Below, piece after piece: positions 12,584-15,100 of a stretch of 33,525 bases of DNA (position 1 is the first letter of the stretch; every line of letters starts with the position of its first letter). The position numbers were made by a program, and so were the translations under genes. The DNA comes from Bacteroidetes bacterium RIFCSPLOWO2_12_FULL_35_15 (GTDB lineage Bacteria; Bacteroidota; Bacteroidia; 2-12-FULL-35-15): contig MEPB01000012.1 in NCBI GenBank assembly GCA_001769385.1, forward strand, positions 1 to 33,525, in the 5' to 3' direction. The notes under the pieces were generated by a model. That model did not search any database. It worked only from the letters and a program-made list of their open reading frames with translations, and was not told where the DNA came from.

Positions 12584-13240
12584 TTAGTCAATGATCATTT
12601 CCGGAATGTCTCCTTCAATTATTAATCGGCCCTCTGTTGCATTTTCAATTTCCTGAACACTGATTCCCGGTGCACGTTCTAACAATCTGAATCCTTCCGG
12701 TGTGACATCTATTACTGCTAATTCGGTTACAATTTTTTTAACGCATCTTACACCTGTTAATGGTAAACTGCATTTGGTTAATAGTTTTGATTCCCCTGCT
12801 TTATTCACATGTTGCATGGCAACGATAATGTTTTTTGCAGAAGCAACCAGGTCCATTGCCCCTCCCATTCCTTTAACCATTTTACCCGGAATTTTCCAGT
12901 TGGCAATATCTCCATTATCAGAAACTTCCATAGCACCCAAAATTGTAAGATCTACTTTGCGTGCACGGATCATCCCGAAACTCATTGCCGAATCAAAAAA
13001 AGCGGATCCGGGAACAGTCGTTATTGTTTGTTTTCCGGCATTTATCAAGTCCGAATCTTCTTCTCCTTCAAAAGGGAAAGGCCCCATTCCTAATAATCCA
13101 TTTTCTGATTGCAGAACAACGTTCATTCCTTTGGGAATATAGTTGGCTACCAATGTTGGAATTCCTATTCCTAAATTCACATAATAACCATCTTTTATTT
13201 CTTTAGCGATACGTTTCGCGATTCCAATTTTGTCAAGCAT
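12584..13240 (-). CDS. scoB: 3-oxoacid CoA-transferase subunit B
   Basis: This 218-residue beta subunit belongs to the succinyl-CoA:3-ketoacid CoA-transferase family, which moves CoA between succinate and acetoacetate or similar acids in ketone body and branched-chain/fatty acid metabolism. The catalytic glutamate motif SENGLLG is at 45-51 (E46). GLGIPTLVANYIP (23-35) and FFDSAMSFGMIR are other family blocks. The C-terminus (LLERAPGISVQEI) is complete and the length is normal. Its partner scoA lies upstream on the same strand but is separated by the GxxExxY cassette, which is unusual since these subunits are normally adjacent. The following membrane transferase begins directly at its stop codon. 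Confidence 0.95.
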   Translation of the reverse strand: MLDKIGIAKRIAKEIKDGYYVNLGIGIPTLVANYIPKGMNVVLQSENGLLGMGPFPFEGEEDSDLINAGKQTITTVPGSAFFDSAMSFGMIRARKVDLTILGAMEVSDNGDIANWKIPGKMVKGMGGAMDLVASAKNIIVAMQHVNKAGESKLLTKCSLPLTGVRCVKKIVTELAVIDVTPEGFRLLERAPGISVQEIENATEGRLIIEGDIPEMIID

Positions 13241-13266: not shown

Positions 13267-13306
13267 AATTATCTACGAATACGAATTTATACGAATGTAC
13301 GAATAG
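13267..13306. repeat. left inverted arm of the GxxExxY cassette
   Basis: This 40-base arm is built from TACGAAT units. It is the reverse complement of 13791-13830 with 37 of 40 positions matching (counted by eye). The arm lies 26 bases upstream of the scoB start codon. No clear target-site duplication could be recognised outside it. Confidence 0.85.
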
Positions 13307-13324
13307 GTATTGTGTATTCACTAA

Positions 13325-13729
13325 TTACGTATTTGCATTTACATTCACCATTCTTTTATAAACAACTCCTTGTGCCGAAAATTTTATCAATAGCGCTAAG
13401 GTTATTCCTGTTGTTTTTAAATACTGATTAACTTGATCAATATTTTGTTTGGAAAAGCGCGTATCTTTTTTCAGCTCGATAATTATTTTTTCAGCAACAA
13501 AAAAATCAAAAAACATTTTGCCGACAATTTTTTCGTTAAATTTTACCGGAAAATAAAGTTGTTCTGTAAATAAAATATCTCTTTTCTTTAATGCTTCAGC
13601 AAATGCGCGCTGGTAAAATTTTTCTGGGTGTCCGAACCCTAATTCATTAAATACATCGTAAGCACATCCAATGATTTGATAGCTCAGTTCAGGAAACAAC
13701 AAATCTTTTTTATGAATTACAGCAGGCAT
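13325..13729 (-). CDS. GxxExxY protein (PD-(D/E)XK nuclease-like superfamily)
   Basis: A 134-residue protein with the hallmark GxxExxY motif (GHPEKFY, about 33-39) preceded by IIGCAYDVFNELGFG, the typical N-terminal helix of this family (PF13366/TIGR04256). Downstream, FDFFVAEKIIIELKK (about 73-87) supplies the D...ExK pattern expected of a PD-(D/E)XK nuclease-like core. A C-terminal helix QNIDQVNQYLKTTG and a LLIKF strand complete the fold. No biochemical function is established for the family as far as I know. The length is full and the frame is open. It sits between scoA and scoB, bounded on both sides by inverted ATTCGTA-type repeats, so it appears to have arrived as a cassette. It carries no transposase or recombinase of its own. 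Confidence 0.88.
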   Translation of the reverse strand: MPAVIHKKDLLFPELSYQIIGCAYDVFNELGFGHPEKFYQRAFAEALKKRDILFTEQLYFPVKFNEKIVGKMFFDFFVAEKIIIELKKDTRFSKQNIDQVNQYLKTTGITLALLIKFSAQGVVYKRMVNVNANT

Positions 13730-13753
13730 CTTCCCGTTTTTTTTGATTCTTAT

Positions 13754-13830
13754 ATTCGTACCAATTCGTATTCGTAGTTTATTTTTATCTCGATTCGTAT
13801 ATTCGTATAAATTCGTATTCGTAGATTATT
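13754..13830. repeat. right arm: tandem ATTCGTA repeats, inverted relative to 13267-13306
   Basis: Two 24-base copies (13754-13777 and 13801-13824) differ at two positions and repeat with a period of 47. The outer one is the core of the 40-base arm 13791-13830, which is inverted relative to 13267-13306. The stop codon of scoA (13826-13828) lies inside this arm, so the cassette begins exactly at the end of that gene. Confidence 0.85.
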
Positions 13831-14545: not shown

Positions 14546-15100
14546 TTAATTATTTGACATTTTTAAGTTTATAACCAATTTTTTTTCTTGGTTTGGCTTT
14601 TTCTTTTTTCTCAAGCAATTCATCCAGATACTGGAATACAAGTTCAATATTCTTGCTGTGATTCCCATTATTTGTTTTATTTGTTCAATTTCCAATTTTA
14701 ATTCAGAGGTATCAGCAAAAATCTGTTTTATTTTAGTAAAAATTCTAATTATTTGAATGTTAACGGCTATTGCCTGCTTGCTATTAAGAATGCTTGAAAG
14801 CATTGCCACACCTTGTTCTGTAAATGCAAATGGAGCATATCTTAGCCCCATTTTGTCTGAATAATTGGAGATCACATTTTGTGATCTCCAATTATCAAAT
14901 TCGACTTTGCTTAACTCGAACATAAAATCGGAAGGAAAGCGTTCTATATTCCTTTTTACAGATTGTTTTAATACTCTTGTTTCGACTCCATACAATGCAG
15001 CCAAATCTCTATCAATCATTACTTTCTGCCCTCTTATAACATATATTTGATTGATTACAAAATCTACCGGAACTATTATTTCAGACTTTTTTTCTGACAT
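14546..15100 (-). pseudogene. ORF6N domain protein, frameshifted near its C-terminus
   Basis: The 184-residue reading frame begins with an ORF6N DNA-binding-type domain often found in phages and mobile regions: IYVIRGQKVMIDRDLAALYGV, FPSDFMFELSKVEFDNWRSQ, and APFAFTEQGVAMLSSIL (residues about 20-105). The tail read in frame is unfamiliar (after QIKQIMGIT). In the -1 frame, starting around 14665-14680, the DNA encodes NHSKNIELVFQYLDELLEKK, then PRKKIGYKLKN and a stop at 14550-14552, which is the usual ORF6N tail. A one-base deletion (or equivalent indel) therefore separates the two parts. The site has no long homopolymer, so a homopolymer sequencing error is not the obvious explanation. The N-terminal domain may still be functional. 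It lies between the penicillin-binding protein gene and scoA. Confidence 0.8.

Follow-up and report, generated by a model that had tools for sequence, protein, structure and literature searches.

An inverted-repeat-bounded GxxExxY gene between scoA and scoB: a putative mobile cassette whose predicted nuclease may be paired with its own repeat words

Introduction

In Bacteroidetes bacterium RIFCSPLOWO2_12_FULL_35_15, the genes for the two subunits of 3-oxoacid CoA-transferase, scoA and scoB, are separated by a small gene of the GxxExxY family, which lies between two inverted arms of short repeated words. The question is what this unit is, and whether the protein and the arms belong together. 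The window is the whole stretch of 33,525 nucleotides that was analysed, from contig C12 (MEPB01000012.1) of a draft assembly that comprises 110 contigs and 5.39 Mb. A first-pass annotation, made from the sequence alone, had proposed a non-autonomous mobile cassette with a nuclease-like passenger. GxxExxY genes are common, and a pairing with their arms offers a concrete, testable function for them. A search of open-licence papers, judged by their listings, returned no account of GxxExxY function, and within the same scope none of the papers listed for PF13366, PDDEXK_3 and TIGR04256 dealt with such cassettes by its listing.

Results and discussion

The unit between scoA and scoB

The features of the locus are as follows.

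12584-13240, - strand: scoB, 3-oxoacid CoA-transferase subunit B, host gene, intact open reading frame (TIGR02428, 2.3e-97)
13267-13306, - strand: low-coordinate arm, 3' of the gene, with ATTCGT words on the - strand; 37/40 complementary to 13791-13830
13325-13729, - strand: GxxExxY protein, 134 aa, predicted PD-(D/E)XK nuclease (PF13366, 2.2e-29; TIGR04256, 7.7e-29)
13469-13507, - strand: predicted catalytic codons D75 (13505-13507), E85 (13475-13477) and K87 (13469-13471), their role inferred from the PD-(D/E)XK pattern
13737-13783, + strand: weaker right-arm repeat that matches 13784-13830 at 85% across 47 nt in the repeat search
13791-13830, + strand: high-coordinate arm, 5' of the gene, with ATTCGT words; includes the scoA stop codon
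13826-14533, - strand: scoA, 3-oxoacid CoA-transferase subunit A, host gene, intact open reading frame (TIGR02429, 4.9e-74)

The repeat search returned the arms as a 38-nt inverted pair at 95%. The inverted-repeat score was 66. In 1000 dinucleotide shuffles the highest score was 32, and 124 intervals of equal geometry slid over the window, part of which may overlap the cassette, reached at most 36. The first-pass annotation had described the 40-nt arms as reverse complements at 37 of 40 positions, and this was borne out with a score far above the controls. The 24-base second copy that it had placed near the right arm (13754-13777) is also real and lies within the longer copy at 13737-13783. 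The stop codon of scoA (13826-13828) falls inside the right arm, as had been stated, and both host genes are undamaged by the unit. The GxxExxY gene is the only open reading frame of at least 90 aa within the unit. An ORF6N-domain gene (14546-15100, - strand; PF10543, 3.9e-35) lies directly upstream of scoA. No inverted arms were found around it, and it was absent from the other 29 scoB loci, which extend only 1.5 kb from scoB.

The GxxExxY protein

The window protein matched TIGR04256 at 100.4 bits (cut-off 35) and PF13366 (PDDEXK_3) at 102.6 bits (cut-off 22). The Pfam search of this protein returned PF13366 only, with no match to an HUH tyrosine (Y1) transposase. Among 88 aligned proteins of the genus, D75 is kept in 88, E85 in 87 and K87 in 88, and the window protein has all three. 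This conservation makes a working enzyme likely, and we predict that the GxxExxY proteins are likely functional nucleases. AlphaFold2 was run on three sequences and gave a mean pLDDT of 45.9, too poor to use; a sequence search of solved structures returned nothing better than E 0.23.

The family is widespread. TIGR04256 gave 11 matches at 10 loci in the genome of the window. A scan of the genome_contigs set with the single protein yielded only 2 loci. All 36 genomes of the genus contain a GxxExxY match, with 1 to 11 matches per genome, and the window protein was matched at E 1e-10 in 146 of 395 sampled genomes of the phylum. Some GxxExxY matches lie within much longer open frames (L210, L213, L214 of 883 aa, L142 of 584 aa), which are possibly fusions with a different protein.

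Inverted arms flank most GxxExxY genes of the genus

The first-pass annotation had proposed a check for ATTCGTA-type inverted arms at other GxxExxY genes of the genome. An inverted repeat flanks the gene at 8 of the 10 loci in this genome, and the spellings differ (GCGCCTTTGCGTCTTTGCGG, AATCTGTGAATCTGTGGC, CTATGTTTCTATGTGG, ATTCGTA and others). By a stricter test that left out the decayed locus L018, 7 of 9 testable loci reached the threshold, an inverted-repeat score of at least 28; L010 (27) and L014 (21) were below it. For the genus, 119 loci among the matches listed were tested. An open reading frame of at least 100 aa was present at 118 of them (including the decayed copy L017), and for 114 of the 118 the sequence extended 300 bp to either side. 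Arms at the threshold were present at 92 of the 114 loci and lacking at 22. The controls were close to zero: 0/342 for dinucleotide shuffles, 0/9 for other open reading frames and 2/394 for intervals of matching geometry slid along these loci. When left flanks were paired with right flanks drawn at random from other loci, 15/342 passed. The words of the arms vary between cassettes.

A wider set was formed from the 29 phylum loci nearest to the window protein together with L050 and L051, of which 3 were unusable at an edge. Arms were present in 18 of the remaining 28, compared with 0/140 shuffles, and 10 were below the threshold. Four plasmid records (Bacteroidota, Fusobacteriota, Spirochaetota and Gemmatimonadota) gave inverted arms in 0/4 by the same test, and heptamer counts in the flanks of these four loci showed no convincing excess over shuffles. 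In the plasmid pZRK30-1 of Fusobacteria bacterium ZRK30 (L313), the repeats that flank the gene are direct, 52 bp long and hold ATCNGTG words, and in a plasmid of Gemmatirosa kalamazoonensis (L315) an ATCCGCG-word hairpin was seen by eye close beside the gene. An Rfam search of nine repeat loci gave zero matches within the repeats; a Bacteroidales small SRP match was found in L308.

The arm words follow the protein tree

In the 92 arm pairs, 426 matches to the pattern [AC]T[TCA][TCA]G[TC][GAT] were counted in 6008 nt, compared with 62.6 in shuffled arms; the pattern was written after the arms had been seen, and the count is descriptive and not an independent test. Word spacings were 7-10 nt in 103 of 122 cases, and 88 of the 92 cassettes had at least two word matches. 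Ten word classes, set by patterns after the arms were seen, were placed on a quick tree of 94 proteins (135 columns, 22 of 91 inner branches unresolved). They required 18 changes, where the minimum is 9 and the mean for shuffled labels is 64.9; none of 200 shuffles was as low.

All 21 proteins of the window clade have TTCGTA-type words, including two from metagenome-assembled genomes (MAGs) outside the genus. Locus L051, from a Falkowbacteria MAG, has 46-48% protein identity, the arm ATTTGTATATTTGTATACAATTTGTAATTTGTAG and a window-like layout, and L050, from an unplaced MAG, lies in the window clade with TTCGTA-type words; either MAG may be misbinned. One TTCGTA-labelled row (L165) stands outside the window clade. 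Of 20 loci added afterwards, arms reached the threshold in 12, each of which shared the word class of its nearest labelled protein. These loci were read by eye once and not blind, 8 of the 20 were armless or untestable, and L233, L249 and L250 have a nearly identical arm and are not independent.

The spelling of the repeat follows the family tree of the enzyme, which suggests that each enzyme recognises its own repeat and perhaps moves it. Arm words and nuclease diversify together across the genus, so the protein looks like a match to its arms and not like chance cargo. Some agreement between word and protein is expected from the common descent of gene and arms. Of the two roles that the first-pass annotation had considered, this favours the second, with the arm repeats as the putative binding target of the nuclease. 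The 88 tabulated pairs of nuclease and word provide a natural experiment in the way that such a small enzyme shifts its DNA target.

Two further analyses of the arms were set aside. A residue-to-letter code was sought between protein columns and word letters; with at least 4-5 supported independent pairs, the comparison was underpowered. Whether the two arms of a site evolve in concert was also considered: similarity within a cassette exceeded that between species in 67 of 85 pairs and was below it in 14. No conclusion was drawn, since the arms had been chosen in advance for their mutual match and the 17 groups of cassettes that share a site disagree.

An origin of the arms in chance, or in ordinary intergenic low-complexity sequence unlinked to the gene, has a negligible probability in our view. 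ATTCGT arrays are indeed common in the genome away from GxxExxY genes, but this explanation is refuted by arms at 92 of 114 loci with near-zero controls, together with word classes that track the protein tree.

It was also considered that the nuclease might be cargo, or a protein that the host has domesticated for repair, uptake or defence, that another enzyme moves the arms, and that word and protein match through joint travel and descent. We regard this as unlikely. The same word class is kept in window-clade proteins down to about 46-48% identity. PADLOC returned weak matches only (E 0.0018 and 0.0039), phage records gave zero matches to the nuclease, and PHROGs reached only E 0.06. The genome has 11 RAYT-type (Y1_Tnp) matches, none of them between ATTCGT arms, and several of these genes have other, GC-rich repeats. 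The evidence in its favour comes from the persistence of cassettes and from gene-less repeats, both given below.

The unit is absent from the same junction in related genomes

An empty scoA-scoB site in related genomes was expected if the unit had been inserted. The scoB gene was found in 30 of the 36 genus genomes, and scoA and scoB were both visible at 28 loci including that of the window. None of the 27 other readable junctions holds the GxxExxY gene, and 8 of the 27 gaps are only 5-35 bp long, counted from the last matched scoA codon. The expected empty site was therefore found.

Four of the gaps (L059, L063, L069 and L071) contain another open reading frame, bounded by TTTGAAAATG-type words; for the weight of these four, G031 and G027 are close relatives. 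The reading frame in L059 is PF05635 (23S_rRNA_IVP), and those in L063, L069 and L071 look alike by eye. In others, for example L057, L062, L075 and L076, inspection by eye showed short hairpins built of further words, with no reading frame. The 23S_rRNA_IVP-like reading frame is a second type of passenger between inverted word arms (TTTGAAAATG, ACTTTATAAACT and AACCTCAACCT types). In the genome of the window, TIGR02436 had 10 matches, and only L111 and L112 had inverted repeats clearly above shuffles.

This related arrangement in the scoA-scoB gap of other species is one reason to consider an RNA role, in which the transcript folds into a stem around the reading frame, as in 23S rRNA intervening sequences excised by RNase III, and selection keeps the stem. 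The portion of the Coxiella report used here describes such an intervening sequence with a 28-bp terminal stem that is cut by RNase III (PMC4990558). We give this explanation very little credence. The window unit lies outside any rRNA gene, and mismatches between the arms on the sense strand, summed over the 92 cassettes, were G.T in 57 cases and A.C in 62, which is no wobble excess, albeit by an indirect test. The lack of a G.U excess favours DNA sites over RNA pairing.

Empty sites were also sought for 10 other cassettes in five relatives with joined flanks. Eight were inspected, all but L009 and L016. Empty sites were found for 5 of the 10: L010, L013, L017 and L123 in G023, and L160 in G027. 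The flanks of these five were too diverged or altered to place the junction, and no target-site duplication was readable. Other sites were occupied differently. In G023, the L012 gap holds a different GxxExxY cassette (L109), whose right side is CTCTGTGACTCCGTGGTT and which is below the arm threshold. Words of the ACTTTAAACT type stand in the L123 gap of G017 and words of the ACTTGAAACT type in the L087 gap of G007, whose L181 gap has kept one arm, ATTCGTAAATTCGTA. Furthermore, pairs of cassettes at different sites share the gene and the arms and little beyond: L012 and L017, both in the genome of the window, at 81.9% over 443 bp, and L013 and L168 at 79.2% over 500 bp. That the GxxExxY unit of the window is an inserted unit is supported by these sequence comparisons. 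In the description of the unit as a non-autonomous mobile cassette with a passenger, the inserted unit is upheld by the empty sites; the passenger agrees less well with the data, because the words co-diversify with the nuclease.

The same site is shared between species in 17 cassette groups, one of which spans 10 genomes. This indicates that much of the pattern is vertical inheritance and that the units also persist. The maintenance of 17 groups at one site in several species fits a host role of the nuclease.

Gene-less copies of the arms

Arrays of such words that are equally common at random intergenic sites without the gene had been named as an observation that would speak against the proposed cassette. 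This was in part borne out, as ATTCGT arrays without the gene are common in the genome of the window (93+83 matches, compared with 3+5 for the reversed pattern). The arrays that were inspected include gene-less inverted pairs (L305, L306 and L308, by eye), single arms and tandem arrays (L310, L311). Head-to-tail amplification of ATTCGT was seen in L311 (G000:C9, 895-1208; 21 words in one orientation) and L307 (G000:C37).

For CTATGT, 28 matches were listed in G000, the genome of the window, and 32 in G001. Seventeen pairs of neighbours lay within 300 bp, and 16 of these 17 were in cassette orientation. Twelve gene-less CTATGT elements align with one another over 112-216 nt as aligned, four from G000 and eight from G001 (L292, L293 and L295-L304; L294 was left out because its span is unclear). 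Their ends read ACCACATAG..ACATAG and CTATGT..CTATGTGGT, and their interiors are alignable. The CTATGT words are present by construction of the search; the outer AACC/GGTT and the internal hairpin are not. This GAAGC..CTTC hairpin was seen by eye in 8 of the 12. Extra internal copies of the word are also carried by gene-less CTATGT elements.

Repeat density was higher where the matching protein is present. Where an intact window-clade protein occurs (18 genomes), the median was 28.8 ATTCGT per Mb; in the 18 others it was 9.5, a difference of about 3-fold (Mann-Whitney p = 1.3e-4). When these 18 others were searched for the window protein, G004, G015, G027 and G031 proved to have decayed copies, and the remaining 14 gave no match closer than E 8.6e-17. 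With decayed copies counted as present (22 and 14 genomes), p was 0.0034, and for CTATGT (8 and 28 genomes) it was 0.0086; all these density tests ignore relatedness, the counts include the arms of the cassettes themselves, and several assemblies are incomplete. There were exceptions in both directions: G005 lacks the protein and has 144 ATTCGT, and G028 and G033 possess it and have 10 and 16. CTATGT counts are 32 in G001 and 30 in G026, both without a cassette of that clade in the set examined, and gene-less pairs in these two genomes also fit a cargo or host role of the nuclease. We believe that the pairing of nuclease and arms may explain part of the intergenic repeats in these genomes.

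The gene-less pairs could instead be what the nuclease cuts. In a homing-type process, the enzyme would cut word pairs that already exist without the gene, and the gene would be added when the break is repaired from an occupied copy, so that the arms would be a target and not transposing ends. PD-(D/E)XK homing enzymes exist. The orientation of the gene-less pairs is that of the cassette arms, and no target duplication was seen at the sites that were read, where the flanks are diverged. However, the five empty sites that were read show no matching word pair in the relative, and the empty scoA-scoB gaps of 5-35 bp are too short to have room for one. The single ATTCGT arm at the L181 site in G007 would be either a homing target or a decayed cassette. 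On this evidence, we think homing improbable.

A proposed pairing of the nuclease with its arms

We return to the reading in which the nuclease and its arms form a pair. The unit at 13267-13830 is probably, though far from certainly, a member of a group of mobile and long-lived cassettes, in which a PD-(D/E)XK nuclease is paired with its own arms in the manner of REPIN-RAYT but with an unrelated enzyme. Each nuclease lineage would have its own 7-nt word, and the nuclease would bind the words in both arms. It would then nick or cut the DNA at or beside the arm words. This cutting would drive the spread of the cassette, as well as the spread in trans of gene-less copies that have these arms at their ends. 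That binding, cutting and movement are due to this nuclease and not to another enzyme is what we infer; other enzymes could move the arms in trans. Should the movement be the work of the nuclease, the system would resemble transposition but have no known transposase.

A broader proposal is put forward more tentatively, as one that may almost as well be right as wrong. These PD-(D/E)XK nucleases may represent a new class of mobile DNA, which recognise and spread inverted arrays of 7-nt words, with many pairs per genome, each feeding its own gene-less elements. The pairing would then be a specificity code that has diversified letter by letter.

Comparison with known systems

The comparisons below with published systems extend as far as the cited portions of the respective papers. 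TAACTGA repeats of Beggiatoaceae and others are also intergenic arrays of a 7-nt word and occur across several phyla (PMC4679880). They differ in being direct, with one fixed word, and in lying mostly just upstream of start codons; the cited portion names no linked nuclease (PMC4679880).

In the 23S rRNA intervening sequences, a small open reading frame is likewise bounded by inverted repeats and sporadically distributed (PMC4990558). A relative of their reading-frame family (PF05635) even occupies the same scoA-scoB gap in L059. The difference is that an S23 protein lies in rRNA there, whereas here a GxxExxY reading frame lies between scoA and scoB, with no sign of RNA pairing in the arms.

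Miniature inverted-repeat elements (MITEs) share with the gene-less copies a short length, the lack of a gene, terminal inverted repeats and dispersal between genes (PMC4596501). The ends of the MITE BrickBuilt of Porphyromonas gingivalis match an IS5-family transposon (PMC4596501), whereas the gene-less ends described here match those of the nuclease cassettes and are not found on the Y1_Tnp genes of the genome.

REPIN-RAYT systems consist of REP doublets and REP-associated tyrosine transposases (PMC3116915, PMC8266576). The cassettes share with them an enzyme gene beside its repeat, several such pairs per genome in which every enzyme has a repeat of its own, gene-less inverted doublets scattered between genes, and enzyme lineages that tend to stay in place (PMC3116915, PMC8266576). 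In the genome of the window, Y1_Tnp genes or fragments with GC-rich inverted repeats of their own were observed at L282, L283, L286, L287 and L291. Two differences are clear from the cited portions. The REPIN-RAYT enzyme is an HUH tyrosine transposase, and that of the GxxExxY cassettes is a predicted PD-(D/E)XK nuclease; the repeat there is a single REP palindrome, and the cassettes have rows of 7-nt words inverted across the gene. The enzyme is therefore not that of a REPIN-RAYT system, but in organisation the GxxExxY cassettes are closest to REPIN-RAYT among the systems compared.
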